A stretch of 16,114 bases of DNA from Flavobacteriaceae bacterium (GTDB lineage: Bacteria > Bacteroidota > Bacteroidia > Flavobacteriales > Flavobacteriaceae), in contig NZQO01000004.1 in NCBI GenBank assembly GCA_002693605.1, positions 1-16,114 on the forward strand, in the 5' to 3' direction. Below the pieces are notes generated by a model. The model saw nothing but the letters and a program-made list of their open reading frames with translations, ran no database searches and was not told the DNA's origin. Positions within the stretch are counted from its first letter, which is position 1. Every line of letters begins with the position of its first letter. This document shows, piece by piece, positions 341-15,370 of this stretch. A program made the position numbers and the translations under genes.

Positions 341-1660
341 GTGCCGAAAAAATCAAAGCCACTTTCCGCCAAGCAAGTGGAGCATCTAAAGAAGCCGGGG
401 CTGCACAATGTTGGTGGTGCGGATGGACTCTATTTGAAGGTCTCCGAAACCGGCGCCCGGGCCTGGGTTTTCAGGTACGCAACGCCTGAAGTCAGAATAT
501 CCAAAACCGGCAAACCGTTCCGGGCCCGCCGTGATTTGGGTTTGGGCGGATATCCAGAGGTTGGATTGGCTGAAGCCAGACAGGCCGCCCGCGAATATCG
601 TCGCAGGATCAAGGACTATGGCGAGGATCCCGCCGAGCAACGACGAGCCGCACAACGCGAGTGGGCTGAAAGCCTCCGTAAGAATGTGTCGTTCGAGCAA
701 GCAGCTCGCCAGGCTTTCGCCAAAAAGGCGCCTGAATTCCGAAGCAAGAAGCACCGTGACCAATGGATCAGCCGACTTGAACATTACGCCTTTCCAAAGA
801 TTGGGCACCTGCCAGTGGCTGAGATTGACGTTAACCACGTTCTGGACGTTCTCCGGCCTATCTGGCACACCAAGACGGAAACGGCTACACGGGTGCGTCA
901 GAGGATTGAATCGGTTTTGACCTGGGCGAAAGTGTCCGGCCTTCGTGAAGGTGACAACCCCGCTGAGTGGCGGGGAAATCTGAAAGAGCTGTTACCAGAT
1001 CCCAACAAGCTGAGAAAGGCGCAACACTTCCCTGCTCTGCCATATAAGCGCCTTCCCGATTTCTTCAAAGCCGTTCGCGCCCGCGATGGGTTTTCGGCTC
1101 GTGCGCTGGAGCTCGTCATTCTCACCGCTGCCCGATCTGGTGAAGTTCGCGGCGCCACTTGGGATGAGCTGGATCTCAAAGCAGGCACCTGGAAGATTCC
1201 AGCCGACCGAATGAAGAACGGCAAAGCGCACACTGTCCCGTTGACCAAGACCGCCGTGGAAATGCTGAAGGCCCTGCCGAGGCTGGAGGGCAATAACTAT
1301 GTGTTCCCCGCCGTTCGAGGAGGCCAGATGTCTGACATGTCGCTGACCCAGCTCGTCAGGCGCATGAACACCGACAACGAAAAGCCCTGGATCGATCCAT
1401 CGACCGGACGAAACATTACGGTTCACGGATTGCGGAGCACCTTCAAAGACTGGTGTAGAGAACGCACACGTTACCCGGATGAGGTCAGTGAATTGCAGCT
1501 GGCACATATCAATGACGATAAAACACGGGCCGCCTACGCCCGCTCAGAGCTGATCGACAAGCGCCGACTCATGATGGCGGATTGGGAGCAATTCTGTTTG
1601 CACGGCGAGACCAAGAACGAATCCGGCAAGGTGATAGCCATTGGCGAGGGGAAATCATGA
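341..1660 (+). CDS. int: P4-type tyrosine integrase
   Basis: This is a site-specific recombinase of the tyrosine family that would catalyse integration and excision of the island. From the GTG at 341 it is 439 aa, a normal length for P4-like integrases. The N-terminal ~100 residues look like the arm-binding DUF4102 domain (LSAKQVEHL, then GGADGLYLKV). A core-binding domain follows, then the catalytic domain with all expected residues: Arg265 (AARSGEVR), a Lys near 292 (MKNGKAH), His362-x-x-Arg365 (HGLR), His389 (LAHI) and nucleophile Tyr399 (AAYARS). The open frame extends back to a TTG at 299, but the GGAG at 327-330 and the start of homology favour GTG 341. Its stop overlaps the next start as ATGA. 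The gene appears intact, so the island may still be mobile. Confidence 0.95.
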   Translation: MPKKSKPLSAKQVEHLKKPGLHNVGGADGLYLKVSETGARAWVFRYATPEVRISKTGKPFRARRDLGLGGYPEVGLAEARQAAREYRRRIKDYGEDPAEQRRAAQREWAESLRKNVSFEQAARQAFAKKAPEFRSKKHRDQWISRLEHYAFPKIGHLPVAEIDVNHVLDVLRPIWHTKTETATRVRQRIESVLTWAKVSGLREGDNPAEWRGNLKELLPDPNKLRKAQHFPALPYKRLPDFFKAVRARDGFSARALELVILTAARSGEVRGATWDELDLKAGTWKIPADRMKNGKAHTVPLTKTAVEMLKALPRLEGNNYVFPAVRGGQMSDMSLTQLVRRMNTDNEKPWIDPSTGRNITVHGLRSTFKDWCRERTRYPDEVSELQLAHINDDKTRAAYARSELIDKRRLMMADWEQFCLHGETKNESGKVIAIGEGKS

Positions 1661-2550
1661 AAAGTTCCGAAGTTAAAGCCGAGCGCAAAAGGCCCATAGG
1701 ATGGGTAATCGATCCTGTAGCTTCTTTCGTGGACGGCGGGCCCGGACATAAAGATGAAGTGCTAATAATTGCGGGCTTAAGTCGTGAAAAGCATATCGAG
1801 CGCGAGACACTTTGGAAGGCAGGTAAGCGAGCCTTTGACTTGATTTTTCCTCCGGGAGAGGAAATTTCCTTGGATGAACTAGAGGAGTTCTTGACTGTCT
1901 CTACTGAAGAGCTGGCCTCTTTGTGGAACCGATTCCGAAGCCCTCTGGAGCAAATGATAGAGGAGGGCCTTTTGGTCATATATCCATACGATTCAGAGGA
2001 ACCGATTAAAGAGTTCCGAGAGCTTAAGATCAATCCGACCAATCCATGGGCCTACCTTCACCTTGAGCCCTACATATTTGCCATCGATTCTCTTTTTGAA
2101 CAATCCAATTTGCTCTCCGAAGATGAAGAAGAGATCTGGCCCTACGATAGAGAGCTGCTAGGGGCCTACTTCACATTGTGCTTTCTAGACGATGTTGCAG
2201 CCGGGATCGATCTCAATGAAGAGAATTCAGAAGCAGCCGGTTGGGTAACTTTCTGGTTCGACAGAATCGATCAATTTAACCGAACACGGGAAGTCATCAA
2301 GCACCAAGAAAGCATCCGAAAACAACAGAAGTCTCAGTCAATGAACAAGATGCGCCACGCCAGAAGGAACGAGGCAAGACAGCTTGTAATAGATGACTGG
2401 CACCAAAGAAAAAGCGAGTTTCGAAGCGCCGAAAAGGCCGGCAACTATTACGCCGACTGGCTCGAAAGCAAAGGCTTTGAATTCGAACCCCGCACAATCA
2501 CTACCTGGATCCGGAAGTACGCCAAGGACAATGGTATTAAGCTGAGATAG
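1657..2550 (+). CDS. hypothetical protein coupled to integrase, C-terminal HTH-like region
   Basis: The product is 297 aa and not recognised. The start ATG at 1657 overlaps the integrase stop (ATGA) and has GAGGGGA at 1646-1652, so it is translationally coupled to int. The first ~220 residues are strongly acidic with many E, D and W (for example SLDELEEFL and LLSEDEEEIW). The last ~65 are basic (RRNEARQLV) and end in a segment reading RTITTWIRKY that resembles the recognition part of a helix-turn-helix. The family is unknown. Co-expression with the integrase suggests an accessory role in recombination or its control, or a cargo role such as defence; this is inference only. A hairpin terminator begins directly after its stop. 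Confidence 0.8.
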   Translation: MKSSEVKAERKRPIGWVIDPVASFVDGGPGHKDEVLIIAGLSREKHIERETLWKAGKRAFDLIFPPGEEISLDELEEFLTVSTEELASLWNRFRSPLEQMIEEGLLVIYPYDSEEPIKEFRELKINPTNPWAYLHLEPYIFAIDSLFEQSNLLSEDEEEIWPYDRELLGAYFTLCFLDDVAAGIDLNEENSEAAGWVTFWFDRIDQFNRTREVIKHQESIRKQQKSQSMNKMRHARRNEARQLVIDDWHQRKSEFRSAEKAGNYYADWLESKGFEFEPRTITTWIRKYAKDNGIKLR

Positions 2551-2576
2551 CAGTCTCCACAGGAGACTGTTCTTAG
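2551..2576 (+). terminator. hairpin terminator after the integrase operon
   Basis: CAGTCTCC (2551-2558) and GGAGACTG (2562-2569) form a perfect 8-bp stem with a 3-base loop, followed by a short, imperfect T-rich tail (TTCTTAG). It starts on the first base after the preceding stop codon. It separates the int operon from the alpA operon. Confidence 0.6.
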
Positions 2577-2639
2577 TCCACTGGAGAGGCGTCTCAGCCC
2601 GCTCTCTGCCCTGATTTACTGCTCATGTGTTTAACAACC

Positions 2640-2650
2640 CCTGTAACAGG
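2640..2650. promoter_or_regulatory. CCTGTAACAGG palindrome before alpA
   Basis: CCTGT-A-ACAGG is a perfect 5-1-5 inverted repeat 11 bases before the alpA start, and it touches the AGGAAGG ribosome binding site. The core TGTAACA also occurs at 145-151 and 256-262 in the integrase leader. It could be an operator shared by int and alpA, perhaps for autoregulation by AlpA (inference). Confidence 0.35.
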
Positions 2651-2661
2651 AAGGTTTAACC

Positions 2662-2853
2662 ATGAGCAAGCAATCCCTCCGCTATATATCGGATAAGCAG
2701 TTATCCGAACGCCTCGAAGTCAGCCGCCAGACCGTTTGGCGCTGGGTGAGAGAAGGCAACCTGCCAAGACCGATCAAGCTGGGCTCAAATTGCACCCGCT
2801 GGAGACTCTCAGACGTTGAAGCCTGGGAAACCAGCAAGGAGGCTGCAGCATGA
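2662..2853 (+). CDS. alpA: AlpA-family transcriptional regulator
   Basis: The product is 63 aa, typical for AlpA. It contains a MerR/excisionase-like winged helix: SDKQLSERLEVSRQTVWRW, then a wing with GNLPRPIKLG and CTRWRLSDVEAW. AlpA proteins of P4-like and PICI-like elements activate excision and replication genes and can act as excisionases. It is the first gene of a six-gene operon and has a clear AGGAAGG ribosome binding site at 2649-2655. Its stop overlaps the next start (ATGA). The palindrome just upstream suggests self-regulation. The family call is secure; whether it acts as activator or excisionase is not visible. Confidence 0.93.
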   Translation: MSKQSLRYISDKQLSERLEVSRQTVWRWVREGNLPRPIKLGSNCTRWRLSDVEAWETSKEAAA

Positions 2854-3068
2854 GAGTTACCACTCAAGTAAAGCCAGGCTTTTTCTGGAAAGCAGGCCGC
2901 CAGTACATGGCTCTGTCCGAAGTGCCCCGCACTTTGAATCTGACCGCATCAGAAGTAACAGATGCCGTAGGCCGAGATGAGCTGAAGGTCGAGAAGGTAT
3001 CTGGCTGCAAAGTTGTTTCGATGGAAGCGCTGCTTGGTTACGTCACTATGAGGGAGGGCCAGAAATGA
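2850..3068 (+). CDS. small conserved protein, paralogue A
   Basis: This 72-aa protein of unknown function starts at an ATGA overlap with alpA and ends in an ATGA overlap with the primase gene. Residues 8-65 align without gaps to residues 15-72 of the protein at 6529-6777, with 18 of 58 identical. Shared points are PG then two aromatics and K, E-V/I-P, E-K/R-V-S/A-GC-K/R-VV, and a final YV. No domain is recognised. The compact beta-rich look and place beside AlpA suggest a small DNA- or protein-binding accessory of replication control (inference). Confidence 0.8.
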   Translation: MRVTTQVKPGFFWKAGRQYMALSEVPRTLNLTASEVTDAVGRDELKVEKVSGCKVVSMEALLGYVTMREGQK

Positions 3069-4090
3069 AAAAAGCGCCCGCTCCCGAAGAAGCCAAGCGC
3101 CAGACCCGGCTCAAGTATAGCATCGGACAATCGGATCAAAACACAGTAAATCGTAAGCACGACGAAGCTGCTGGAGGATACGCATCCCTCCTAGATTCAA
3201 TACGCACAGCTCTGCTTGAAGCGGGTATAGAACCCGCGAATCCTGACGCCCTCCTCTCACGACTGGCTGAGGCGGAGGGCAAACCTGTGCGATTTGGAAC
3301 AGTCACAAAGCCTCGAAGCAAAAACGGATGGTTGATTGCCTACCATGATCGAAGCCTTCCGTTTGTGGTGATTGCCGGAGACTGGGCAACCGGGGCAGAA
3401 ATGAAGTGGATAGCCGGTCACTTAAACTCCATGACGCGAGCTGAACAGCGAGAGCTGAAGCGCCGAATGGATAGAGCGCGAGAAGCCAGAGAGGAAGAGC
3501 AGGCCCGCCAATGGGAGGCCAGAGCCATCGAAGCAGGCCGCCGCTGGCACTCTTCCGCGACAGCCGACCAATTTCATCCCTACCTTCTACGAAAGGGGAT
3601 ACAGCCGCACAGAGCCCGCCAGCATGGCAGAGAGCTTGTGTTATTGCTGACGGATTTCAACGGTAAGGCCTGGAGCCTGCAAACCATAGACGAAGCCGGT
3701 GAGAAACGTTTGATGGCTGGCGGAAAGAAGGCCGGTCACTTCATCGTCGTGGATGGACCGGACTACCCTGCCCGCGTTTTGATATGCGAAGGCTGGGCCA
3801 CCGGCTGCACCCTCGCAGAGTCAGATCCTGCCGCGCTGGTGTTAGCTGCAGTGGACTGCGGAAACCTTCAGGCAGTGGCAACAGGAGCCCGGAACCGTTG
3901 GCCCGATGCCGACCTGATCGTATGTGGAGATGATGACCGGACAACACCAGGCAATCCGGGAGCGACCACCGCCAGATCTGCGGCTTTGGCCGCTGGTGCA
4001 CGATATGCGCTTCCGCAGTGGCCGCCAGCAGCCCCCCTAAACCTTTCCGACTTCAACGACCTGTCAAATTGGCGGAAGGGGGCAGCATGA
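3065..4090 (+). CDS. TOPRIM-domain primase-like protein
   Basis: This 341-aa protein resembles phage and plasmid DNA primases of the TOPRIM_2 type, which would make RNA primers for replication of the excised island. The TOPRIM signature is visible: Glu242 in LICEGWATG and the acidic triad Asp289-Asp291 in CGDDDR. Before it is the family's usual region ending in GDWATG and a highly charged helix (about 120-160) reading REAREEEQARQ. No CHC2 zinc finger is present at the N-terminus, so the zinc-binding part is missing or replaced. Residues ~20-32 are encoded by DNA that carries a variant of a motif repeated elsewhere in the island. The start and stop both overlap neighbours as ATGA, coupling it to the helicase. 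Confidence 0.88.
   Translation: MKKAPAPEEAKRQTRLKYSIGQSDQNTVNRKHDEAAGGYASLLDSIRTALLEAGIEPANPDALLSRLAEAEGKPVRFGTVTKPRSKNGWLIAYHDRSLPFVVIAGDWATGAEMKWIAGHLNSMTRAEQRELKRRMDRAREAREEEQARQWEARAIEAGRRWHSSATADQFHPYLLRKGIQPHRARQHGRELVLLLTDFNGKAWSLQTIDEAGEKRLMAGGKKAGHFIVVDGPDYPARVLICEGWATGCTLAESDPAALVLAAVDCGNLQAVATGARNRWPDADLIVCGDDDRTTPGNPGATTARSAALAAGARYALPQWPPAAPLNLSDFNDLSNWRKGAA
3144..3158 (+). repeat. variant copy of the island 15-mer (inside primase gene)
   Basis: CAGTAAATCGTAAGC differs at one base from CAGTAAAACGTAAGC at 7000-7014 and 15391-15405, in the same orientation. The preceding ACA also matches the 7000 copy. The 11-base palindrome that precedes the other two copies is not conserved here (about 5 of 11 bases). 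Confidence 0.5.
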
Positions 4091-5973
4091 GCGAAACCAG
4101 CACTGCACTACAGATTTCGGAGGTAACCGAGGTAACCGGGGTAACTCCCCTGTCTCCCAACACTTCCAGCGGTAACCCCAACGAAAAACTTGAGGTAACC
4201 GGGGTAACTATCAACCCGGAAAGCCCACTCACGACACCCCCTAAAGCTCCTGAGGAAGCGAAGATAAACCGCCCGTGTTTTGCGACCCATGATGATTGGT
4301 TCAAGCTGAACGGCGAGCTTCAAAAGCCAGGCCTGTACTGGCACGGCTGGAGCAAAGCACACGGTGACAGTGAACCGGAACCATTGGACACATGGGTAAG
4401 CACTCCAATCCACTCAATTGCCCTTACTCAAGACGAGCATGGGAGCAATCACGGGCTACTTTTGCGGTTCTGCGATCCATCCGGCAAGTGGAAGGAATGG
4501 GCAGCCCCGTTACATCTGCTTAAAGGCAGTGGCGAAGAATTGCGAGGCGAGCTGCTGAGCAATGGGCTTAGATACAACCTTCAAGCTCAGCGACTCTTAC
4601 TGCAATGGATGATGAGCCAGTACCCAAACCGGTGGATCATTGCAGCGACCACAACCGGTTGGGGGCCTGACACCGATGCGTTTGTTCTTCCGGGGGCAAC
4701 TATCGGCCAAACAGAAATACGCTTTCAATCGGAGCATGCAGCCCACGATGCCTATGTTCAACGCGGCACCCTGGAGTCATGGCGCAACAACGTATCCAAG
4801 CGATGCGAAGGCAACCCTGTCTTGGTGTTGGCAATTTCCGTTGCCTTCGCCGGCCCGCTGATTCTGAAGGCTCGCCAACAGCACACCGGTGGCGCCGGTA
4901 TCCACCTGATGGGCGATTCATCCAAAGGAAAGACAACGGCACTCCAAATCGCCGCCAGTATTTGGGGAGCACCTGATTTCGTCTGCTCCTGGAGAGCAAC
5001 CGGCAATGGCCTCGAGGCTACCGCTTCAGCAAGGAATGACACTCTCCTTCCCCTCGATGAAATCAGTGAGAGCAATCCGAAAGAGATTGGTTCAATCGTC
5101 TACGCCTTAGCGAATGGCCACGGAAAGCAAAGAGCTGCGCGAACCGGTGGCGCCCGGCTTTCTGCACGCTGGCGGATTATGGCCCTGTCCAGCGGTGAGC
5201 GAAGTCTCTCTGCACACATGAATGAATCTGGACAGAAAGTGAAAGCTGGCCAGGAGGCCCGTCTACTGGATCTCCCGGGCACGAATCGCGTTCATGGCGC
5301 ATTCGACAAACTGCACGGCCTGGAGAGTGGCAGCCAGTTCTCGAACGCCCTTAAGGAAGCCACTAGCAAGGATTACGGCTTGGCGGGCCCCGAGTTTGTG
5401 GCGCGCCTGATCCAAGACGAGAGCGATTTGCCCGGGCTGTACGCGGAAACGTGCAACCTTCCCGGCTTCACTGGGTCGGACGGCGTCGAATCACGGGCTG
5501 GCAGTACGTTTGCATTGATTGCCATGGCAGGAGAGAAGGCCACTGAGTACCAAATCACTGGATGGGCCGAAGGAGAGGCCCTTACTGCTGCGATGGATGC
5601 GTTCAACGAATGGCGATCATTCAGAGGGCAAGGCAGCACGGAACACCGACAAATCTTGAGCGGAATACGTGACTTCATCGCGAGGCACGGTGACAGCCGA
5701 TTCTCCGAACGTAACCCAACGAATGAGATCGCTCCGCCGGTTAGAGACAGGGCCGGGTATTGGGAGGACACCCAGGATGGCCGGGTTTATTACTTCAACG
5801 CGCCAGGCCTGAAAGAAGCCGGCAATGGCCATGATATGCCTCGTATTCTGGAAGCCGTCGAATCCGCAGGATGGATAGTGGAGCGGGACGGCAACAAACG
5901 CTCGAAGCGTAAGAAAATTTCAGGGCAAGTCGTCGCTCTGTACGCGCTACGCTTGGAGGATCCAGAACCATGA
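4087..5973 (+). CDS. DUF927 AAA-type helicase/ATPase
   Basis: This 628-aa DUF927 protein is probably the replicative helicase of the island, unwinding its origin together with the upstream primase. Walker A is GDSSKGKT at residues 276-283 (Lys282), and Walker B is LLPLDEIS with Asp324-Glu325. The domain starts around residue 60 after a low-complexity tail (12-41) made of EVT/GVT units, which are encoded by GGTAACC repeats. The C-terminal ~130 residues look like a small winged-helix region. I chose ATG 4087 because it overlaps the primase stop (ATGA) and follows a GGAAGGGGG ribosome binding site, although the frame stays open upstream. DUF927 proteins are common beside TOPRIM primases in phages and islands. 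Confidence 0.9.
   Translation: MSETSTALQISEVTEVTGVTPLSPNTSSGNPNEKLEVTGVTINPESPLTTPPKAPEEAKINRPCFATHDDWFKLNGELQKPGLYWHGWSKAHGDSEPEPLDTWVSTPIHSIALTQDEHGSNHGLLLRFCDPSGKWKEWAAPLHLLKGSGEELRGELLSNGLRYNLQAQRLLLQWMMSQYPNRWIIAATTTGWGPDTDAFVLPGATIGQTEIRFQSEHAAHDAYVQRGTLESWRNNVSKRCEGNPVLVLAISVAFAGPLILKARQQHTGGAGIHLMGDSSKGKTTALQIAASIWGAPDFVCSWRATGNGLEATASARNDTLLPLDEISESNPKEIGSIVYALANGHGKQRAARTGGARLSARWRIMALSSGERSLSAHMNESGQKVKAGQEARLLDLPGTNRVHGAFDKLHGLESGSQFSNALKEATSKDYGLAGPEFVARLIQDESDLPGLYAETCNLPGFTGSDGVESRAGSTFALIAMAGEKATEYQITGWAEGEALTAAMDAFNEWRSFRGQGSTEHRQILSGIRDFIARHGDSRFSERNPTNEIAPPVRDRAGYWEDTQDGRVYYFNAPGLKEAGNGHDMPRILEAVESAGWIVERDGNKRSKRKKISGQVVALYALRLEDPEP
4122..4209 (+). repeat. GGTAACC iteron cluster A
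   Basis: Six direct copies of GGTAACC or GGTAACT start at 4122, 4131, 4140, 4171, 4194 and 4203. Neighbouring copies are 9 bases apart in runs of three and two. They lie in the first 41 codons of the helicase gene. Iterons beside replication genes are typical binding sites for satellite or plasmid replication proteins, so this is a candidate origin or cis-replication element. Confidence 0.7.
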
Positions 5974-6536
5974 GTTATGCCGAGCTATTGCGTAAGTTTG
6001 CAGAGCGCCCGGTTACCCCGGTTACCCCGTGCAAAGAGGCCAAGGTAACCGAAAACCGTGAGGAAAATCAGACAGGTAACCTCAGTTACCTCAGTTACCC
6101 CAAGGAACCTAGAGAAGCTGAGCGAAACCGTAAGCCACGAAGACTTGAGGCTCCTTTGCATGAGATCGCGCAAACCCTCGGGGCCTGCCCCAACATCCTG
6201 AGATCCCTTCTGTCTGAAGATGACATGGAGGACATAGCAGAGGGGCTAATCAGTCGAAGCCATCTAATCGCCTACTTCAGGCTGATGCGCTCAGAGGGTA
6301 TACCGCTGACAGAGGATTATCCGAGCTTCAAGCGTTCACCAGAGAATCGATCTGGACACGTTCAGAGGATGCAGGTTTGGAAGCCTGCTCACGAAGACCT
6401 GATAGACCATCTCATGGCCTGCGCTGATTGCCACGCCCCACTGAAACGTTACTGCGAACAGGGCGCGTCACTTAGACAGGCTTACATCGACCTTTGCACC
6501 GCCCCATTAGAGAACAGGACTACAGTCAATGAGTGA
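5970..6536 (+). CDS. hypothetical protein with four-cysteine (zinc-ribbon-like) C-terminus
   Basis: This 188-aa protein begins at an ATGA overlap with the helicase stop. Residues 14-44 are encoded by a second GGTAACC cluster and look like a disordered tail. The rest is helical. Near the end are Cys151, Cys154, Cys162 and Cys176 (CADC, then RYC, then DLC), a spacing that could bind zinc. The family is not recognised. Its place between the helicase and the second small paralogue suggests a replication accessory such as a helicase loader or origin-binding protein (inference). Confidence 0.78.
   Translation: MSYAELLRKFAERPVTPVTPCKEAKVTENREENQTGNLSYLSYPKEPREAERNRKPRRLEAPLHEIAQTLGACPNILRSLLSEDDMEDIAEGLISRSHLIAYFRLMRSEGIPLTEDYPSFKRSPENRSGHVQRMQVWKPAHEDLIDHLMACADCHAPLKRYCEQGASLRQAYIDLCTAPLENRTTVNE
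6011..6099. repeat. GGTAACC iteron cluster B (mixed orientation)
   Basis: There are six copies: GGTTACC at 6011 and 6020 (reverse), GGTAACC at 6044 and 6075 (forward), and AGTTACC at 6084 and 6093 (reverse). The two reverse pairs keep the 9-base spacing of cluster A. The copies are translated as VT in some places and as GN or SY in others, so the conserved unit is DNA and not peptide. It lies 1.9 kb from cluster A, on the other side of the helicase coding region. Confidence 0.7.
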
Positions 6537-6777
6537 TGAGACTACGCAACCCGAGTTCACCGAACGCTACCAGCCAGGTTGGTACTTTAAAGGCCAGGCG
6601 CCATGCCTGGCAGTCTATGAAATACCGAAATATGCATTGATGACAAACTTAGAAGTGGAGGTGGCCATAGTAAATGGTGATTTTCAGCTTGAAAGGGTCG
6701 CCGGATGTAGAGTTGTCCCCCTTGCCGACGTATTCAGATATGTAGAAAGGCGTGCAGCTGTTTGGGGAGAAAAGTAA
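6529..6777 (+). CDS. small conserved protein, paralogue B
   Basis: This 82-aa protein of unknown function overlaps the previous gene by 8 bases. Residues 15-72 align without gaps to residues 8-65 of the 72-aa protein at 2850-3068 (18 of 58 identical), including the aromatic motif after PG and the E-R-V-A-GC-R-VV stretch. The two copies form the second and last genes of the same operon. An acidic N-terminal extension (SDETTQPEFTE) is specific to this copy. It could be a homo- or heterodimer partner of paralogue A. Confidence 0.78.
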   Translation: MSDETTQPEFTERYQPGWYFKGQAPCLAVYEIPKYALMTNLEVEVAIVNGDFQLERVAGCRVVPLADVFRYVERRAAVWGEK

Positions 6778-6940
6778 ACAAGGCTCTTTCAACTGAACTG
6801 AGGCCGGGGCGCCCTGGAAGAATCACACCTTCCCGCCCTGGTCGTCATTGCCCAACTTCACGCGCGCATACTGGTCCGAAAACCTCCCTCATAGCTCGAA
6901 GAATAAACACTGTTTATCCGCACATATATCAATGCAAAAC

Positions 6941-6949: not shown

Positions 6950-6950
6950 T

Positions 6951-6966: not shown

Positions 6967-6983
6967 AAATTACTTAACGAAGA

Positions 6984-7014
6984 TTGTCAGACAAAGACAC
7001 AGTAAAACGTAAGC
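6984..7014 (+). repeat. 31-bp composite motif, copy 1
   Basis: An 11-base perfect palindrome TTGTCAGACAA (6984-6994) is followed by 5 variable positions and CAGTAAAACGTAAGC (7000-7014). The same palindrome, spacing and 15-mer recur at 15375-15405. It lies 31 bases before the start of the gene at 7046. Function unknown: it could be a packaging, recombination or regulator site. Confidence 0.7.
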
Positions 7015-7045
7015 TGACTTAAACCTTTTTGTTTGAGGTATCGCT

Positions 7046-7228
7046 ATGGCACGCACAAGAGGCGCCACCAACGCCAAGCCCTCCAAGAAAGCCCTCAAGA
7101 CCTATTACGCAATGCTCCGCAGCGCTGCAGACCAAGGCGACCTCGCCGCAGCCGGCAAACTCATCGAACTGGACCACCTCGAAAAACAGCGTCAGCTTCA
7201 AGCAGAGGAGAAACACCAATGCGGGTAA
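7046..7228 (+). CDS. small basic phage-type protein
   Basis: The product is 60 aa and rich in Lys and Arg, with an N-terminus reading ARTRGATNAKPSKKALK and a following helical part (YYAMLRSAADQGDLAAAGKL). It has GAGG at 7035-7038 seven bases before the ATG. It overlaps the next start by 10 bases. Short proteins of this look are common in phage genomes, but I cannot name a family; a DNA-binding role is only suggested by charge. It is the first gene of the block leading to the giant protein. Confidence 0.65.
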   Translation: MARTRGATNAKPSKKALKTYYAMLRSAADQGDLAAAGKLIELDHLEKQRQLQAEEKHQCG

Positions 7229-7809
7229 CAAAATTCCACCCAGAGCTTGCCCCTCCCCCACTTGGGAAAAACTTCGAGGAAGGCACAGAGCCCACCGGTG
7301 ATGGCTGGGTAGATCACCCTTCAGAATTCCCCAACACCAAGGTTTACCTCTACCACCCCTGGAAAGCGCCACGAGGGGAAACGTTCGAACAGGGCGAAGA
7401 ACCGCAAGAACCCGGCTGGGTAACCTCCAAGAAACACCTTCCGACTATGCCGGATCCACTAGGGCCGATTTACAACGAGAAGCGAATTCCTGCCCTCGTG
7501 AGGGTTGCTGAAGTGCTGCGTGCTCGAGGCTTTCCCGAAGTTGAGATCAAGAGGCACTTGGAGACGGTTAACCAGCGGGAATGCTTGCCGGCAGTAGAAG
7601 TGCACAGCCTTGATGAGGTTGTTCAGGGCACAACGCCAATCGGAATGCCTCACCTGAGTTTTGTTCTACAGGACGTTGCAGATGAGCTGGCCAGGCAAGG
7701 CAAATCCATAGAGGCCGCATACGAGACGCTGAACGACTTGAACACCAACCGGGGCAACAGCGCGCTTGGTGACGATGACATGCAGCAATTCTACAACCGC
7801 TTTTCCTGA
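7219..7809 (+). CDS. hypothetical protein with N-terminal tandem repeat, precedes giant protein
   Basis: This 196-aa protein is not recognised. The frame stays open to 7033, but the upstream part has nonsensical Arg-rich composition and overlaps the 60-aa gene. ATG 7219 follows AGAGGAG and begins sensible sequence. Residues 16-34 and 53-68 are a repeat of the form G-K/E-N/T-FE-E/Q-G-T/E-EP, then GWV. The C-terminal half is helical and acidic. It ends 22 bases before the giant gene, so it may be a partner, scaffold or chaperone of that protein (inference). Confidence 0.75.
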   Translation: MRVTKFHPELAPPPLGKNFEEGTEPTGDGWVDHPSEFPNTKVYLYHPWKAPRGETFEQGEEPQEPGWVTSKKHLPTMPDPLGPIYNEKRIPALVRVAEVLRARGFPEVEIKRHLETVNQRECLPAVEVHSLDEVVQGTTPIGMPHLSFVLQDVADELARQGKSIEAAYETLNDLNTNRGNSALGDDDMQQFYNRFS

Positions 7810-7831
7810 AGCAGCTGGCCGGGAGGCTTCC

Positions 7832-10800
7832 ATGGTGAATCCATACAACGAGATTGCAGACCAGATCGACCAGAAAACGATAGGAAATGATAAGTCAGCA
7901 ACACCGGAGAGACGTCAACCGCTGGCGCCACCCAACCCTTACGAGGCGTCAATCAAGAAGGTAGAACAGCAAAGGAACGTGCTGCTAAACCGCGCACTGA
8001 AACGCGCAATGGGTAACCCGCCTGATGAGATTGCTGAGGTAATCGGCCTTTCCAGAGCCACCGGACTGAACCCCGAAATCGTCAAAGGTCACAAGCAGGA
8101 GGTGGAATTTCGAGCCAGGCAGCGCGAGACCGGCGCCCAGGTGGCTGCACTCTCTCGCCCTGGCCAGGAATGGCTCACAGAAAAGTACAACCTGGATCTG
8201 TCCCGAGATGACCTTGCCAACATTAAGGCTCTTGATGACGCCATCCAGAACCGTGACTACTACGAACAAACCGCTCTGGAGCGAAATCTGGTCACTCCTG
8301 TACGCGATGCCCTTCTCAGCATTCGGTCTGCCTTCACCTCGCAGAAAGCCGCGGCCAATGCTCCGGTAATTCCGGTGCTCGAGCAAGCTGAGGAGATCCT
8401 GCAGACTCAGGGCCGGGAAAAGGCCCGCGAGTGGGCCCAAACAGACGAGCGGGTCCGGGAGCTCGGCATTCACTCCAATGTCGATTACTTCCTCAGACAG
8501 TCGGAGAACAAGCGCCAAGAGCTTCTTGGATACCGCCAGCAATCAGCCACAGAGGCCGCACAAGCGACCGTAGAGACCGAGACAGAGCGCCAGGGACTGC
8601 CGAGAAACCCGCGCCTGACAGAAGCTGAGGGCTTCACCGGTGTCACCAGCGCAATCTTCAACAATCCTGAAATCATCCTTCAGGAAGCAACCCGGGCTAC
8701 TGCCCTCTCCTTGCCGATGCTCGCCATGGGCGCCGCTACCGGTGGCGTTGGTGCCGCTGCCATTGGATTCGAGACAGAGCGCAGCCTGGAAATCCTCAGC
8801 CGACTGCAGAAAGCCGGAGTAGACGTCACCGACACCGATGTACTGCTGGCGGCCTTCGCTGATTCCGACCTGATGGAAGAAATTGGGGGCGAGGCAGTTC
8901 TGAAGGCAGGAGGCGTAGCCGTAATGGATCTGCTGAGCTTCGGAGTAGCCGGTAAGCTGTTGGCACCGGCCGCCATCGGCTCCAGAGCGCTAACAGGGCC
9001 GCAACGAGAATTGCTGAACGTCATGGCCCAGGTTCCGGTTCAGTCAGCCTTTGAGGGCGGTGGTGAGGCCCTTGGCCAGCTGCTGGCGGATGGTGAAGTA
9101 GATGGGGCTGAAGTCGCCATAGAAATGATTGCTGGCGCTGCCACGTCCACGCCCGAAGTCGCTGTGTTTGGTGGCCGTCGAATTGCTGAGACCTTCACCC
9201 GCAAAGCGCTGGACTACCGCACGGCAAAGCGAGACAGAGCGTATCTCACCAATGTGAAAGAGGCGGTGAACCAGACCAAGCTCCAGAAGCGTGACACCCA
9301 AGCCTTGAAAGAACTGATAGCCAAGCTGAACGAACAGGCGCCCGCGAAAGAAGTGTTCATTGGCGCCGAAGATTTCCGTGAGCTCTTCCAATCCCGGGAC
9401 ATGGATCCGGATGAATACGCCAAACGCATGGACTCTGTAGGCAGTCAGTACACCGAAGGACTCGCCACCGGCTCTGATATCGCGGTATCCATGGAGGACT
9501 TCGCCTCAATCATTGCGCCCCTGGAGCTGGCAGAAGACTTTATTGAGCTCGCCAGAACGCAACCGCTCGGCATGAGCCCGGCAGAGGCTGAGGCCTGGAT
9601 GAGCGAGGAAGCGCGGCCGGCGCTGGACGATGTACTGAGTGCGCAGAAGGATGAACTGCTGGCCTCCGGTGACCGAGTTTTTCAGGAAGTTACCCAGGCA
9701 CTGAACGCAACCGGCATGGAGCGCCGCACCGCTGAGCGCAACGCCACGCTCTACCGGGCATTTTTCGAGACTCAGGCCGAAAGCGAAAGCCTGGATCCTT
9801 ACGAGCTGTTTCGCTCTTACAATCTCAACATTTCTCAACAACTACCTGAGGCTCTGACAGCCAACAATCTGGACTCGCTGGACCCCTTACTCAATGAGAT
9901 ACGCGAGAAGGCGACAGCTGAAACGGACACCGCCCCTGAACAACAGACCCAAACATCAGAACCGCTGAACGCCGGTGAACGCTCGCAAGACGTGGCCGCC
10001 ATCGCTGCCGAACTGGAACGCCTTGGCTTGTCAGTTGCCGAGATGGACAACGACTCTATCAAGGCCGCGCTGCGCCGCATGGACAGCCGGGGCCCAATCG
10101 ACTCTGAAACGATTCTCTCTCAGGGCTCAGAGGGTGACGAGACCAGCGCAGGGAATCGCGGCCGCATTCGATTTAACCGGGACGACAAACGTTTTCAGAT
10201 TGAGCTCATGGAAAACGCCAATCTGTCCACGTTCCTCCATGAATCAGGGCATTTCTTCCTGGAGGTATTGGGAGACCTGTCGAGCCGGGACAACGCCAGC
10301 GAGCGGGTCAAAGCTCAATACCAGAGCCTGCTTGAGTGGCTTGAAGTCCCAGGCCGCGATTCGATAGCAACCGAGCAACACGAGCAATTCGCGCGCGGCT
10401 TCGAGGCTTACCTGATGGAGGGCAAGGCCCCTACACCGGAGCTGCAATCCATCTTCTCCCGGTTCCGTGCCTGGCTGCTCTCGATCTATAAACGAATTAG
10501 CCGGCTAAATGTTCAGCTATCAGATGAAGTGCGCCAGGTAATGGACCGGATGCTTGCGACTGATGAAGCCATCGCACAGGCCCGGGAAGGCGCCGCCTAT
10601 TCCGCCAGCCTTGCAGATATCGAGTCGTTGAACTGGACCGAACAGGAGCGCGCCCGATACCGGGATCTGGTGACCCAGGCACGGAACGACGCCGAAGAGA
10701 CGTTGACCCGCCAGCAACTGGCCGATTTGGACAAGGTCAATCAGCGCTGGTGGAAACAGGAGGCCAAGCGAGAGCGAGAGAAAGCGCTGAAGGCCATGAA

Positions 10801-13800
10801 CGAGGAAATGGCATACGTTGCCCGCTCCCTTCTGCAAAAAGGCGTCATGCCTGACGGTAGCTCCCTTCCTGAACCTCTGCGGGCCATGAAACTGAACCGG
10901 CAGGCCCTGGCGGATATGTACCCGGCTGACAGCGACGTCTGGAAGCAGCTGAAGGCGATGAAAGGCACCTACATCTACACCAGAAAAGAAACCGGAGTGC
11001 ACCCGGATATCTTGGCCGAGGTGCTTGGTTTTGGCTCAGGTGATGAACTTGTGAAAGCCGTTATCCAGACCCAGCCGATTGCGGACGAGGCACAAGCCAG
11101 AGCGGACGCCGCAATGAAAGCCGCCTATCCGGATCTCAGTCTCAGCGGTGAAGCTTCACAGGAAACAGTTGAAGCCATCCATAACGAGAGGCAGGCGGAG
11201 CTGTTGCTTACTGAACTGAAGAAGTTGCACAGTTTGGGCAACCGAACCGGACGCCCTCTCACGCCCGCCAGGATGCTGAAAGAGACCGCCGCCTCCGTTA
11301 TCGCCGGCACACGTGCCAAGGACATCAGACCTGACCTCTACCGTCGTGCTGAGGCGAAGGCCGGACGAGAAGCGTTTGAGGCCGCCGTTCGGCAGGACTT
11401 CGAAAGCGCCTACAGAGCAAAACAGCGCCAACTTTTGAACCACTACCTATACCGAGAGGCCAGACAAGCTCAGGAGACCTCAGAGAAGGTTTACCAGTAC
11501 GCCAAAAGCTTCAACCGGAAAAGTACACGAGAGCGCATTGCAAAGGCTGGAGGCGGTTACCTCGAACAGATTGACGCGATTATCGACCAGTACGAATTTC
11601 GCAGGGTGTCAGTCCGCCAGCTTGAGCGGCGCCAGTCTTTACGTGCATGGACCGAGGAGCAACGGGCGAACGATCTACCGCTCGATATCCCTGAAGACGT
11701 TCTGGAGCGCTCCCAGCGGGTGAACTATCGGGAACTGACCATGGAGGAGCTGCAGGGTGTCTCCGACTCCATCCGGAACATCGCCCACGTAGCAAGCCTC
11801 AAAGGCCGGTTGCTCAAGGATCGACAAAAACGTGAGCTGGAAGAAGCACGCCGCCAGGTGGTGGAAGGCATCACTGAAAATGCCAACCGAAAGGCCAGGG
11901 ACGATGTAGAGACCCGCCTACCCTTCCAGGAAGCCCGGTATATGGTGGGCAACTACTTGGCATCTCACCGACGCCTCTCCAGCCTCATCCGTGAGATGGA
12001 CGGCGGGAAAGATGGTGGCACGCTCTGGCAAATGGTGATGCAGCCACTGAACGAAGCGGGCGACCTCGAGACCGAGCGGACGCGAATCTATAACGAGGCG
12101 CTGGCCAAACTGTTCAAACAGTACAATCCGGGCGAGCTGTCCCGCTTCTACCGCAAGGAATACATCCCAGAGTTGGACTACAGCATGAGCAAGCAGGGCC
12201 TGCTTATGATGGCCCTGAATGCCGGAACCGTGGATAACTGGCAAAAGCTTGTCGCCGGCTATCAGCAGCGTAAAGGCTGGACGGAAGAACAGATGCGAGC
12301 CGCCATCAACCGGCTTGAGAAACGAGACTGGGAGTTCGTGCAAGGCGTCCTGGATCTGGTGAACAGTCTTTGGCCAGACATCGAGGCGAAAGAGAAACGG
12401 GTTAAGGGCATCGCCCCTGAGAAGATTCCAACCCAACCGATCCAGACACCATACGGCACTTTCCCGGGTGGCTACTTCCCTTTGACATACGACGAGCGAC
12501 AGAGCGAAAAGGCTTATTCCGACCGGGTGAAGGAAATGGCTGAGAAGACGATGCAGGGAGCCTTCACAGCCGCCACAACAAAGCGAGGATTCACCAAGGC
12601 CCGGGTTGAGGGTGTGGTTCTGCCGGTCCGCCTGGACTTCGGTGTCATCTTCGAACACTTCAACGAAGTCATCCACGACCTGACCCACCATGAAGCGCTG
12701 TTGGACGTGAATCGGATTCTGCAATCGCAGTCGGTTCAGGAATCGATCTACAGCGCCTATGGAAACAACGTCTACCGGACCATGAAGGCCGCCGTTGACG
12801 ATATCGCTGCCGGTGACGTGCCCGCCATTCACGCCCACGAGAAAGCGCTCAGGCATCTGAGGAATGGTGTAACGATTGCTTCAATGGGCTGGAACATCGG
12901 AACTGCGGCCATGCAGCCACTGGGCATCACGAATTCCATTGTTCGAATCGGTCCCAAATGGGTTGGCCGGGGTGTGAAGCGGTGGATTGGAGACGCAGCC
13001 AAAATGGAGAACACGGCGGCCTGGATCTTCGAGGTATCTCCATTTATGAAGGATCGCGTGTTCACACAAAGCCGAGAGATAAACGACATACGCAACCAGA
13101 TGCGAGGACGCGGAAAGCTCTCTTGGGTTGAAGACTCCTATTTCTGGTTCATCACACGCATGCAGATGACCGTTGATATTCCGACCTGGCTGGGCGCCTA
13201 CGAAAAGGCACAGAGCGAGGGCGCGACGGAAGCAAACGCTATATCCATGGCCGACCAAGCTGTTATAGACGCCCAGGGCGGAGGACAGATTAAGGATTTG
13301 GCTCAGATTCAAAGGGGGCACCCAGCTCTGAAATTGTTCACGAATTTCATCAGCTACTTCGTGACGACCTGGAACCTCATGGCGGAGCGGTACCGGCTGA
13401 ACAAGTTCGAGAGCATGGCGGACGCTGGCCGGTTCGCCTCTGACTTCCTGCTGCTCTACACAGTGCCTGCAGTGCTTGGCTACTTCGTTTCCGGCGCTCT
13501 CCGTGGATTTGGTGGGGATGACTTGGAGGATCCAGAGGAAATGGCCGGAGTTCTCGCCAGAGAGCAGCTTTCCTACATGCTCGGCGGCTTCTTCGGGATA
13601 CGCGAACTGAGCTCTGGTATTCAGGGGTTCTACGGCTATTCCGGGCCGGCTGGCACTAGATTCTTCAGTGAGGCGGTGAGTGCAATGAACCAGGCAAGCC
13701 AGGGTGAAGCGGACGCAGCGCTGGCGAAATCCTTAAACGATATGGGCGGGATACTGTTCCACTACCCAGCCGGCCAAGTAGAACGCTCAGTGGAAGGCGC

Positions 13801-13867
13801 CAGCCTGATTCTGGAGGGCGAGACAATGAACCCCTTTGTTCTCCTGACCGGTGAGAAACGGGAATAA
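7832..13867 (+). CDS. giant polyvalent-type protein with zincin motif (LPD38-like C-terminus)
   Basis: This single 2011-aa frame covers more than a third of the window. ATG 7832 is chosen because GGGAGG at 7821-7826 precedes it; the frame continues upstream inside the previous gene. Visible parts: an N-terminal helical region; hydrophobic glycine- and alanine-rich segments at ~289-312 and ~350-390; a central zinc-protease-like motif His803-Glu804-S-G-His807, then HEQFARGFEAY at 850-860, which may supply the third ligand; a long charged helical stretch (~950-1500); and a hydrophobic C-terminal part (~1674-1715, FTNFISYF near 1835-1845, 1868-1895). The layout matches phage large polyvalent proteins, which are thought to be packaged and injected with DNA. 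The LPD38 assignment is from memory and tentative. The reading frame is intact. Confidence 0.82.
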   Translation: MVNPYNEIADQIDQKTIGNDKSATPERRQPLAPPNPYEASIKKVEQQRNVLLNRALKRAMGNPPDEIAEVIGLSRATGLNPEIVKGHKQEVEFRARQRETGAQVAALSRPGQEWLTEKYNLDLSRDDLANIKALDDAIQNRDYYEQTALERNLVTPVRDALLSIRSAFTSQKAAANAPVIPVLEQAEEILQTQGREKAREWAQTDERVRELGIHSNVDYFLRQSENKRQELLGYRQQSATEAAQATVETETERQGLPRNPRLTEAEGFTGVTSAIFNNPEIILQEATRATALSLPMLAMGAATGGVGAAAIGFETERSLEILSRLQKAGVDVTDTDVLLAAFADSDLMEEIGGEAVLKAGGVAVMDLLSFGVAGKLLAPAAIGSRALTGPQRELLNVMAQVPVQSAFEGGGEALGQLLADGEVDGAEVAIEMIAGAATSTPEVAVFGGRRIAETFTRKALDYRTAKRDRAYLTNVKEAVNQTKLQKRDTQALKELIAKLNEQAPAKEVFIGAEDFRELFQSRDMDPDEYAKRMDSVGSQYTEGLATGSDIAVSMEDFASIIAPLELAEDFIELARTQPLGMSPAEAEAWMSEEARPALDDVLSAQKDELLASGDRVFQEVTQALNATGMERRTAERNATLYRAFFETQAESESLDPYELFRSYNLNISQQLPEALTANNLDSLDPLLNEIREKATAETDTAPEQQTQTSEPLNAGERSQDVAAIAAELERLGLSVAEMDNDSIKAALRRMDSRGPIDSETILSQGSEGDETSAGNRGRIRFNRDDKRFQIELMENANLSTFLHESGHFFLEVLGDLSSRDNASERVKAQYQSLLEWLEVPGRDSIATEQHEQFARGFEAYLMEGKAPTPELQSIFSRFRAWLLSIYKRISRLNVQLSDEVRQVMDRMLATDEAIAQAREGAAYSASLADIESLNWTEQERARYRDLVTQARNDAEETLTRQQLADLDKVNQRWWKQEAKREREKALKAMNEEMAYVARSLLQKGVMPDGSSLPEPLRAMKLNRQALADMYPADSDVWKQLKAMKGTYIYTRKETGVHPDILAEVLGFGSGDELVKAVIQTQPIADEAQARADAAMKAAYPDLSLSGEASQETVEAIHNERQAELLLTELKKLHSLGNRTGRPLTPARMLKETAASVIAGTRAKDIRPDLYRRAEAKAGREAFEAAVRQDFESAYRAKQRQLLNHYLYREARQAQETSEKVYQYAKSFNRKSTRERIAKAGGGYLEQIDAIIDQYEFRRVSVRQLERRQSLRAWTEEQRANDLPLDIPEDVLERSQRVNYRELTMEELQGVSDSIRNIAHVASLKGRLLKDRQKRELEEARRQVVEGITENANRKARDDVETRLPFQEARYMVGNYLASHRRLSSLIREMDGGKDGGTLWQMVMQPLNEAGDLETERTRIYNEALAKLFKQYNPGELSRFYRKEYIPELDYSMSKQGLLMMALNAGTVDNWQKLVAGYQQRKGWTEEQMRAAINRLEKRDWEFVQGVLDLVNSLWPDIEAKEKRVKGIAPEKIPTQPIQTPYGTFPGGYFPLTYDERQSEKAYSDRVKEMAEKTMQGAFTAATTKRGFTKARVEGVVLPVRLDFGVIFEHFNEVIHDLTHHEALLDVNRILQSQSVQESIYSAYGNNVYRTMKAAVDDIAAGDVPAIHAHEKALRHLRNGVTIASMGWNIGTAAMQPLGITNSIVRIGPKWVGRGVKRWIGDAAKMENTAAWIFEVSPFMKDRVFTQSREINDIRNQMRGRGKLSWVEDSYFWFITRMQMTVDIPTWLGAYEKAQSEGATEANAISMADQAVIDAQGGGQIKDLAQIQRGHPALKLFTNFISYFVTTWNLMAERYRLNKFESMADAGRFASDFLLLYTVPAVLGYFVSGALRGFGGDDLEDPEEMAGVLAREQLSYMLGGFFGIRELSSGIQGFYGYSGPAGTRFFSEAVSAMNQASQGEADAALAKSLNDMGGILFHYPAGQVERSVEGASLILEGETMNPFVLLTGEKRE

Positions 13868-14042
13868 GGGGTTTTCGGAGTCCATAAAAAGGCAGGGACG
13901 CCAAGACCGCTTTATGAGAGCTTGCAACAATTATGGGTCATCTAAACGCTCAGACAGTTACGAAATCAGCACGCCATTTATTTCCTGATAGGATGGTTCC
14001 TGAGCTTCGACAAAATCCGAAACAGAGAGGGAAGCCCGGATT
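13868..14042. other. intergenic, no clear feature
   Basis: In these 175 bases I see no gene, no strong terminator after the giant gene, and no clear promoter. The AGAGAGGGAAG at 14024-14034 is the ribosome binding site of the next gene. Confidence 0.4.
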
Positions 14043-14303
14043 ATGACCAGTGAAGAATTCATGGAGCGTTTCCAGAGCCATCCACTCGGCTGGGTTTTCC
14101 AGTCCATGGAGACGGCCGAAAATGAGACTCAGCTTGAGCGCTATCTGAGTATGGCTCACGGTATGATTTTACTTTTGGAGTTTCAAAAGGAATTGAGTGA
14201 AGACGAAGCAAGCTTTCTCAACGAGGCCGCCCGCGGAAATGCGAAGCGCAACTACGACAGAGTAACGAAAACCAATTTCGAGCCACCCAGCACCAGACAG
14301 TGA
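14043..14303 (+). CDS. small hypothetical protein
   Basis: The product is 86 aa, mostly helical and acidic in the middle (ETAENETQLERYLS, LEFQKELSEDEASF) with a polar tail. A strong AGAGAGGGAAG ribosome binding site lies 8 bases before the ATG. No family is recognised. It sits after the giant gene on the same strand and converges with the small membrane-protein genes. Confidence 0.62.
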   Translation: MTSEEFMERFQSHPLGWVFQSMETAENETQLERYLSMAHGMILLLEFQKELSEDEASFLNEAARGNAKRNYDRVTKTNFEPPSTRQ

Positions 14304-14323
14304 GAGCCGACAAACTTCTCACT
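14299..14323. terminator. weak hairpin between convergent genes
   Basis: AGTGAGA (14299-14305) pairs with TCTCACT (14317-14323) around an 11-base loop, spanning the stop codons of both convergent genes. There is no T-run on either strand, so this is only a possible bidirectional terminator. Confidence 0.28.
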
Positions 14324-14474
14324 CAAGCTTGGCGACGTAGCCCACAGCCAGAAGCACCACCGTGATAATTGCGGCGGTGAAGACCTCTACGCCACCTTTT
14401 GCCACGCTGATCCACAGAGACAAGATGACGCAGGCGACAACTGCCCATTTGATGACAGATCCACTGTTATCCAT
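14319..14474 (-). CDS. 51-aa two-pass membrane protein
   Basis: Reading the minus strand from 14474 gives MDNSGSVIKW, then two hydrophobic segments: about residues 10-24 (AVVACVILSLWISVA) and 31-47 (VFTAAIITVVLLAVGYV), split by KGGVE. The ribosome binding site GAAGG lies 7 bases before the ATG. It starts 23 bases after the 108-aa membrane gene, so the two form an operon. Both begin MDN-Y/S-G. The function is unknown; holin-like, superinfection-exclusion or toxin roles are possible for proteins of this form. Confidence 0.6.
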   Translation of the reverse strand: MDNSGSVIKWAVVACVILSLWISVAKGGVEVFTAAIITVVLLAVGYVAKLE

Positions 14475-14497
14475 AGATTCGCCTTCAAGGCCACAAA

Positions 14498-14824
14498 TTA
14501 GAGTAGAGACACCAGACCGCCAATAACTGCTACCCAGAGGCCAACCACAAGCGCCCCGATAATCGATTGAACAGCTATGAATCGAATCTGAGTAGAGGCC
14601 CCTACCCCATGAATGATGTTTTGCATTTGAAACATTGGGTTCTCTTTGGACTCAGCCCTGAACCTGCCCACAAAAAGCACTGCCCTGATATTGGCGATGA
14701 AAAGCCCAATGCCTGCGCCGACTGATACTGCGACCCAAAACGAATCAAAGACAAAGATAAGGCCGATTGAGCAAGGAATCACAAGCAGTCCGAGAGGGCC
14801 AAGAGGGGTTCCGTAATTGTCCAT
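14498..14824 (-). CDS. small multi-pass membrane protein
   Basis: The product is 108 aa with three likely membrane segments: about 10-27 (LLVIPCSIGLIFVF), 31-52 (VAVSVGAGIGLFIANIRAVLF) and 82-107 (FIAVQSIIGALVVGLWVAVI). A charged loop (RFRAESKENP) lies between segments two and three. GGAG at 14838-14835 on the minus strand precedes the ATG. It is transcribed away from the terminase gene, with the two starts 87 bases apart. The family is not recognised. Expression opposite to the rest of the block suggests a cargo (moron-like) gene active in the integrated state (inference). Confidence 0.68.
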   Translation of the reverse strand: MDNYGTPLGPLGLLVIPCSIGLIFVFDSFWVAVSVGAGIGLFIANIRAVLFVGRFRAESKENPMFQMQNIIHGVGASTQIRFIAVQSIIGALVVGLWVAVIGGLVSLL

Positions 14825-14911
14825 AATTTATTTGCTCCACCTCTAAGGGGGTAAGATTTCCCGTGCCCTTAAAACTAGCACAAGCAAGAACACTGGCTAA
14901 ATCAGGTACAG
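14825..14911. other. divergent intergenic region upstream of terS
   Basis: These 87 bases separate the minus-strand membrane gene from the terminase gene. No clear sigma-70 promoter is visible on the plus strand. In lambda the cos site lies immediately upstream of the Nu1 gene, so this stretch is a place to look for a cos-like site. I see a GGGGG...TTTCCC arrangement at 14847-14862 but nothing I can call cos. Confidence 0.3.
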
Positions 14912-15370
14912 ATGGCTGAGAGCCTGGGCATAACGGTTAACGCCTTCGCCCGTTGGAAGGTGGAGCCCGTGGCCAGAATCGGCAAAAACGTCTATTACGA
15001 TGTGCGGAGCGTGCTGGACAATCGCCTGAGCCATGCTGAGGGCAACAGCCTGACCGCTGGCGATATGGAAGCCGAGCGGCTCCGGCTCACCCGGGCACAG
15101 GCAGAAGGCCAGGAGATTAAAAACGAGCTGGCCAAGGGCAAGACCGCGCCCATTGAAATCATCAGTTTGGTGTTATCGAAGATTGCCGGAGAGGCAGCCG
15201 GGATTCTCGACAGTCTCCCGCTCGACATTCGGCGCCGGCATCCAGAATTGCCGACTGCAGTCATTGAATCGATCAAGCGCCAAGTGGTGAAATCTCAGAA
15301 CGCTATCGCCCGCACAGATGAGACGCTGGAACACGCCCTGGAAGATTACCTGGAGCAGTTGGACGCATAG
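14912..15370 (+). CDS. terS: phage terminase small subunit, lambda Nu1 type
   Basis: This 152-aa protein would bind the packaging site and pair with a large terminase; none is encoded here, so a helper phage's enzyme is the likely partner. The match to lambda Nu1 is recognisable throughout: winged-helix start (AESLGITVNAF), VARIGKNVYYD, then RLRLTRAQAEGQEIKNELA, LVLSKIAGEAAGILDSLPL, RRRHPELP and a C-terminal EDYLEQL. The start is uncertain. ATG 14912 has only a weak CAGG, and homology seems to begin about six codons earlier (WLNQVQ), where no start codon exists before a TAG at 14876-14878. The N-terminal helix may therefore be shortened. A lone terS is a hallmark of capsid-hijacking satellites. 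Confidence 0.88.
   Translation: MAESLGITVNAFARWKVEPVARIGKNVYYDVRSVLDNRLSHAEGNSLTAGDMEAERLRLTRAQAEGQEIKNELAKGKTAPIEIISLVLSKIAGEAAGILDSLPLDIRRRHPELPTAVIESIKRQVVKSQNAIARTDETLEHALEDYLEQLDA

Follow-up and report, generated by a model that had tools for sequence, protein, structure and literature searches.

How does a phage satellite with no detectable head genes come to carry one very large gene whose relatives belong to the structural cassettes of podoviruses? The question is raised by contig NZQO01000004.1 of assembly GCA_002693605.1, labeled Flavobacteriaceae bacterium, which is analyzed here over its entire 16,114 bp (hereafter, the window). Both contig ends are open, and sequence beyond either end is not represented. 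The left 6.8 kb encode an integrase, an AlpA-like regulator, a Toprim primase, and a DUF927 helicase, followed by a gene for a 2,011-residue protein (the giant) and by a Nu1-type small terminase subunit (TerS). The element is most likely a phage satellite, and the evidence leans modestly toward one whose own ejection protein is provided to a podovirus helper.

A podoviral giant on a satellite core

The integrase, AlpA, the primase, the helicase, and the TerS had all been named in an initial annotation of this DNA, and all were recovered (Table 1). That annotation also proposed a satellite with its own replication module. This is well supported, because the two best phage-database matches of the helicase, among 22 matching phage records, are the 10,183-bp element vB_Pae_U10 and the 16,812-bp satellite phiAH14b. 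The order integrase, regulator, primase, helicase is common to these two and the window. A left-end integrase, AlpA, and a replication module are also features of Gram-negative phage-inducible chromosomal islands (PICIs), as listed in the available part of PMC6092414. Capsid genes of its own, as in capsid-forming PICIs (cf-PICIs), were not found on the contig. Scans of 17 window proteins against Pfam and PHROGs, together with podoviral queries, gave no homolog of large terminase (TerL), portal, major capsid, or head protease on the contig, and no tape measure matched in the window.

The giant matches phrog_9880 with 1,494 bits. A tblastn search matched 43 phage records, of which 42 are 38.7–47.6 kb in size and the remaining one is a weak match in a 125-kb record. 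Homologs include BPP-1 bbp10, Carin1 gp32, and one HU1 gene. BPP-1 bbp10 is annotated within a structural protein cassette, where it is preceded by genes for tail proteins, an internal virion protein, and a structural lysozyme; in Carin1 and HU1, the corresponding place before the giant homolog is likewise taken by a lysozyme gene. The earlier claim that the element has no virion genes therefore holds for capsid, portal, and large terminase and fails for the giant, which is homologous to a podoviral structural-cassette protein and is not the mere extra outside the PICI layout that it had been taken for. It is the most informative component of the element, and on the same homology it points to a short-tailed helper, not a lambda-like one.

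From 448 relatives of the giant, 80 viral loci were retained; 54 of these (L067 and L073 included) have at least 3 kb upstream of the giant, and 26 were too short. Scans of viral contigs, here and below, recover only relatives that share the chosen peptide patterns, so that the counts are not natural frequencies. In 53 of the 54 loci, all but L076, the 5 kb upstream of the giant contain homologs of a lysozyme, an internal protein, or a tail protein. The window has no podoviral tail, lysozyme, or internal-protein homolog upstream of its giant. Three loci (L050, L092, and L094) were considered as lacking podoviral neighbors and were rejected, as their giant frames begin near the locus start.

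The giant frame is open across 2,011 codons and is preceded by a ribosome site that is good by eye. LPD22 is the sole Pfam domain above cut-off. Within a domain at 10124–10786, the H, E, and H of an HExxH motif are invariant in all 39 aligned rows. We take this motif to be a metallopeptidase signature, and it suggests that the domain is a metallopeptidase. As a single-sequence query in viral contigs, the giant gave no match; it matched none of eight records with TerS relatives, a search counted as uninformative. Judging from its neighbors in phages, its size, and the literature on polyvalent proteins, the giant is probably ejected with the DNA. Internal ejection proteins serve DNA delivery in T7-like podoviruses (PMC8954989, available part), and for polyvalent proteins, injection together with phage or plasmid DNA has been proposed (PMC5512222, available part).

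The pairing in other contigs and a possible late slot

The pairing of a satellite core with a podoviral giant recurs. L073 (25,125 bp) encodes a P4-type integrase cut by the contig end, a Toprim primase, a DUF927 helicase, an internal virion protein (phrog_418, 1.6e-29), a transglycosylase-type lysozyme, and a giant, followed by an AlpA-like gene and then a Mob_Pre protein. L219 combines genes for an integrase, AlpA, a Toprim primase, and a DUF927 helicase with those for an internal protein, a lysozyme, and a giant truncated at the contig end. L067, a shorter relative of L073, has no helicase. A tree of 103 giants places L073 together with L067 in one clade, inside a group of 14 (support 1.0) to which the complete phage HU1 also belongs, and the window giant groups with P0001–P0006 (support 1.0). 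P0001, on a contig of 43,460 bp, is 97% identical to the window giant and would be the likely helper or donor if that contig were a full podovirus; P0002 comes from Marinobacter sp. DS40M6. The giants of the window and L073 are thus not close relatives, and their placement in different clades fits two separate acquisitions. The Mob_Pre protein of L073 (L212 5080–6096, minus strand) raises the possibility that this ejection-cassette element may also be mobilizable by conjugation.

A viral-contig scan with four helicases gave 21 DUF927 loci, one of which, L239, repeats the L073 contig. In 17 of the 21, the helicase is followed by at least one gene for a tail, capsid, or ejection protein. Seven have a tape measure there (L220, L221, L222, L223, L228, L232, and L234), assigned by PHROGs in six cases and by similarity in L222. 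Tail-assembly protein I is present in nine, two of which also have a tape measure; it was assigned by similarity to phiAH14b p20, and PHROGs was run on one (L229). One locus has a P2-type capsid protein (L235), and two have the internal-protein, lysozyme, and giant cassette (L219 and L239). Queries for TerL, portal, and capsid, the first two named by eye for L010 or by record annotation, matched only the L235 capsid among the 21 loci. In the seven tape-measure-bearing Toprim/DUF927 loci, no head gene was detected with the queries used. L233 encodes a 990-residue protein (11468–14440, minus strand) with weak phosphoesterase matches, perhaps a defense gene.

A relative of the window's 188-residue protein lies shortly 3′ of the helicase in 16 of the 21 and in phiAH14b, with weak scores (6e-8 to 6e-5 in 15 loci, 3e-4 in L224, and 5.4e-6 against the phiAH14b p17 region). 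Relatives of the 60-residue open reading frame (ORF) stand directly upstream of the tape-measure gene in L220 and L222. Because this ORF precedes the giant in the window and a tape measure in L220 and L222, it suggests that giant and tape measure fill the same slot. Toprim/DUF927 satellites could form a modular class in which a single late slot follows the helicase and holds a delivery component suited to the helper: a tape measure for a long-tailed helper, an internal-protein, lysozyme, and giant cassette for a podoviral helper, or a capsid gene. Within such a class, the window would represent a podoviral-type member with only the giant left. We offer this broader reading tentatively, as a fair possibility that falls short of an expectation.

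Terminase module, flanking features, and source

Table 1. Features of the window, with coordinates, strand, and supporting matches
Feature	Coordinates	Strand	Matches and remarks
P4-type tyrosine integrase, 439 aa, GTG start	341..1660	+	PF00589, PF13356, phrog_1; 30% identity to phiAH14b integrase
297-aa protein, family A1 (Marinobacter, Vreelandella)	1657..2550	+	26 relatives
AlpA-like regulator	2662..2853	+	PF05930/HTH_17, phrog_66
72-aa ORF	2850..3068	+	No Pfam/PHROGs match
Toprim primase (Toprim_3)	3065..4090	+	PF13362, phrog_2249 3.6e-49
DUF927 helicase, ATG at 4087 picked by eye	4087..5973	+	PF06048 1.1e-84; 38–40% identity to phiAH14b p16 and vB_Pae_U10
188-aa protein, phiAH14b p17 relative	5970..6536	+	Weak matches
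82-aa ORF	6529..6777	+	No Pfam/PHROGs match
Repeat D3, first intergenic copy, 31-bp direct repeat	6984..7014	+	87% identity to 15375–15405
60-aa ORF	7046..7228	+	phmmer relatives over 39 residues, L220 7e-6, L222 1.7e-4
196-aa ORF	7219..7809	+	No relatives found
Giant podoviral structural-cassette protein, 2,011 aa	7832..13867	+	phrog_9880; LPD22, HExxH at about 10238–10252
86-aa gene	14043..14303	+	tblastn 1e-6 to 2e-9 in L158–L162 and L180
108-aa ORF, hydrophobic by eye	14498..14824	-	Occupies the place of cos in kin
Nu1-type TerS, without the first 13 residues of 165-aa relatives	14912..15370	+	PF07471 5.1e-21, phrog_57 5.6e-27
Repeat D3, second intergenic copy	15375..15405	+	87% identity to 6984–7014
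167-aa protein	15431..15934	-	Partial relative in L161, tblastn 1e-11 over 59 aa

The TerS shares 99% identity with a cluster of 165-residue proteins (the Marinobacter form), and an in-frame stop lies 12 codons upstream of its ATG. Among 83 TerS relatives, 31 are exactly 165 and 16 exactly 177 residues long. The 177-residue TerS in phage contig L010 overlaps a 639-residue frame that was read by eye as TerL, and in the N15 record the annotated large terminase adjoins the TerS relative; no TerL frame follows TerS in the window. Four separate elements from viral contigs have the 165-residue form: L158 (with L159 and L160 as near copies), L161, L162, and L180. These Marinobacter-type satellites share the order small gene, cos, TerS, with the relative of the 86-residue gene directly upstream of cos and terS. 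Their cos is shared with phage contigs whose TerS is 67–69% identical to that of the window. The relative of the 167-residue protein in L161 lies downstream of terS and on its strand; the orientation in the window is opposite. In L158, L161, and L162, where the 165-residue TerS adjoins a helper-like cos, a protease-capsid fusion gene is present. L180 has a tape measure, and its contig begins in the apparent end, by eye, of a capsid gene. A common conserved motif marks the start of viral contigs L005, L006, and L008, in each case 116 nt ahead of the matched TerS start; physical cos ends would be expected to look like this.

A cos profile run on the window with nhmmer gave a best E value of 0.42, versus 7e-12 to 0.014 for the test relatives, which were found in six of six cases, one of them (L005) differing little from a training sequence. 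The 13 bases at 166–178 that match the cos region were rejected as a chance-level match (E 0.5; 2.3 with the profile). Because 13 residues are absent from its start and the search for the cos type of its kin was negative, the TerS is read here as a relic of a cos-type arrangement; the shortened protein could still work, and a cos of another type, or a pac, may be present.

Two intergenic copies of repeat D3 bound the block from the 60-residue ORF to TerS, and a weaker copy lies at 3128–3158. The D3 core is beyond chance in a shuffle test. The exact core is carried by 38 viral contigs, none of which shares the rest. In phage contig L011 (1720–1753), the motif stands at the start of a short frame. 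The 297-residue family had no match in viral contigs; in Vreelandella utahensis (L026) a relative lies next to genes for an integrase and an AlpA-like protein, and the cluster of the window protein is listed in 10 contigs, the longest being 16,170 bp. An open frame enters from the left contig end (positions 1–108) and stops ahead of the integrase; it is possibly the end of a neighboring gene. Joining the window ends as a circle gives a 3-base overlap only and no convincing frame across the junction. No RNA families were found at gathering scores in the window.

The source assembly is a metagenome bin of 161 contigs that is 68% complete. GC content is 0.55 in the window and 0.32–0.57 across the first 3 kb of 13 other bin contigs, with which the window has a tetranucleotide correlation of 0.17. 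Several close relatives of the encoded proteins are from Marinobacter. On both counts the contig is probably misbinned, and its host is probably Marinobacter or a relative. The bin was dropped as host on its composition and because the giant was found in one of 99 genomes searched, that one being the window's own. In an order-wide genome sample around Vreelandella, with no member nameable as Marinobacter, the giant had one weak match among 390 genomes, TerS had eight matches (30–44% identity) among 390, and the 297-residue protein had only its already-known relative among 293. A bin fragment used as query against plasmids gave no match.

Competing explanations and known systems

The initial annotation raised the possibility of a PICI-like satellite that exploits a lambda-like cos helper; its own TerS would redirect the helper's packaging motor, and the giant would be incidental cargo on this reading. 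The near-identity of this TerS to the 165-residue cluster, the gene order and phage-shared cos of the related contigs, and the relatives there of the 86- and 167-residue genes beside TerS all speak for such redirection. In the window, however, the TerS start is missing behind an upstream stop, a minus-strand ORF sits at the place of cos, no match of the cos profile exceeds chance, and no TerL frame follows, which leaves redirection by this TerS quite unlikely. The shortened TerS and the cos that was not found would also suit a chimeric or decaying island, or an assembly join, made of a satellite core, a podoviral gene, and a broken TerS module, in which the giant has no present role; so would a probably misbinned fragment without flanks and a giant without its usual partners. 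Against a chimera or join, the giant frame remains open throughout behind a good-looking ribosome site and its HExxH is invariant, and the link of the 60-residue ORF to the tape-measure position, together with the independent L073 and L219, argues for a real slot. The 10 contigs listed for the 297-residue cluster stand on the same side; they do not prove the join. We consider such an origin unlikely, though it deserves to be kept in mind.

The giant might instead be an injected host-takeover or protection (polyvalent) protein that serves conflict and not DNA entry. It has LPD22, relatives such as P0005 have an ADP-ribosyltransferase domain, and seven plasmid records match it in part at 25–49% identity, some of them annotated as LPD23 proteins; proteins of this kind are those proposed in PMC5512222 (available part) to enter with the DNA. 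The window copy, however, has no Pfam domain besides LPD22 above cut-off, and the conserved part is the entire C-terminal half, common to phages that place the giant with lysozyme and internal-protein genes. A role in conflict is accordingly judged improbable. Equally improbable is a full temperate podovirus with structural genes beyond the contig. The open contig ends would permit it, and at least one viral contig with podoviral structural genes (L048) has a window-related integrase a few kilobases from its giant; yet the window has a satellite replication core where 53 of 54 loci have podoviral genes within 5 kb upstream of the giant, and no TerL frame follows its TerS.

The reading modestly favored here, in which an ejection protein encoded by the satellite is provided to a podovirus, would work as follows. 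A BPP-1-like podovirus helper would grow in the same cell, and AlpA would switch the satellite on. The satellite would replicate with its own primase and helicase, and its giant would be loaded into helper-made heads, either replacing the helper's own giant or beside it. Particles with satellite DNA would then enter the next cell using the satellite-made ejection protein. This would be a short-tail equivalent of the chimeric tails that PICI-like elements (PLEs) build with their own tape measure. Candidate benefits of an own giant are avoiding exclusion, matching a small genome, and blocking the helper.

Several observations weigh against this reading. The window has no detectable internal-protein or lysozyme gene, unlike L073 and L219, and a giant alone may not form a working ejection set. 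Carin1 has several structurally validated structural proteins, yet gp32 is labeled hypothetical, and structure models of two regions of the giant (mean predicted local distance difference test score 66–67) had no PDB match at E ≤0.001. The kin of TerS suggest a lambda-like helper and the giant a podovirus, a mismatch explained only by replacement, and no Marinobacter podovirus was found as helper. Placement of the contig in a compositionally different bin means that an assembly join is possible. As for the slot, L224, L227, L231, and L236 show no late virion gene (L227 stops just past the helicase), the 72-, 82-, 196-, and 297-residue proteins have no relatives in the 21 DUF927 loci, and L220 and L222 look closely related, so that the link through the 60-residue ORF may count once.

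Satellites are already known to redirect capsid assembly and packaging. If the modular-slot reading is true, Toprim/DUF927 satellites would take over the DNA-entry step of infection and not packaging alone. If the window and L073/L219 use podoviral ejection proteins in this way, replacing the ejected component would be a strategy independent of tail type. It would also offer a simple system for testing which ejection proteins need to fit the DNA, the head, or the membrane of the host. No earlier report of a satellite-encoded ejection protein was found among the matches listed in the open-access literature, bioRxiv excluded.

Among the known systems nearest to the window is phiAH14b (KU708005; PMC4936722, available part), which has 16.8 kb, a P4-type integrase, AlpA, a Toprim primase, a DUF927 helicase, a p17-type gene, and a helper-related tail gene after the core. 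It differs in having tail-assembly protein I and a lipoprotein after the helicase and no giant, and its authors detected no terminase gene in it. The same source reports phiAH14b as a satellite packaged by phiAH14a, with only phiAH14a proteins identified in virions. The element vB_Pae_U10 (PP003922, 10,183 bp) likewise has an integrase, excisionase-type regulators, a primase, a DUF927-related helicase (annotated as primase), and one virion gene; in its case the virion gene is annotated as major capsid protein GpN, with an exonuclease after it. The BPP-1-like podoviruses (BPP-1 bbp10, Carin1 gp32, HU1) share the homologous giant and differ as phages of about 40–43 kb with their own structural genes. 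SaPIbov5 with Ccm (PMC6893505, available part) is a satellite mobilized by cos phages and carries a capsid-like gene thought to be helper-derived; Ccm alters capsid size and is not an ejection protein.

A parallel in strategy is given by the PLEs of Vibrio cholerae, in which the satellite supplies its own central virion component and the helper most of the rest (PMC12987554, available part). According to that source, PLE11 tails contain the satellite's own tape measure, which is present in PLE11 virions while that of the helper is absent, and the other PLEs also encode tape measures. These chimeric tails were shown in March 2026, and the authors noted predicted tape-measure genes in other satellites. 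The PLE component is a tape measure of a long contractile tail seen in purified PLE11 particles, whereas that of the window would be a putative podoviral ejection-type protein.

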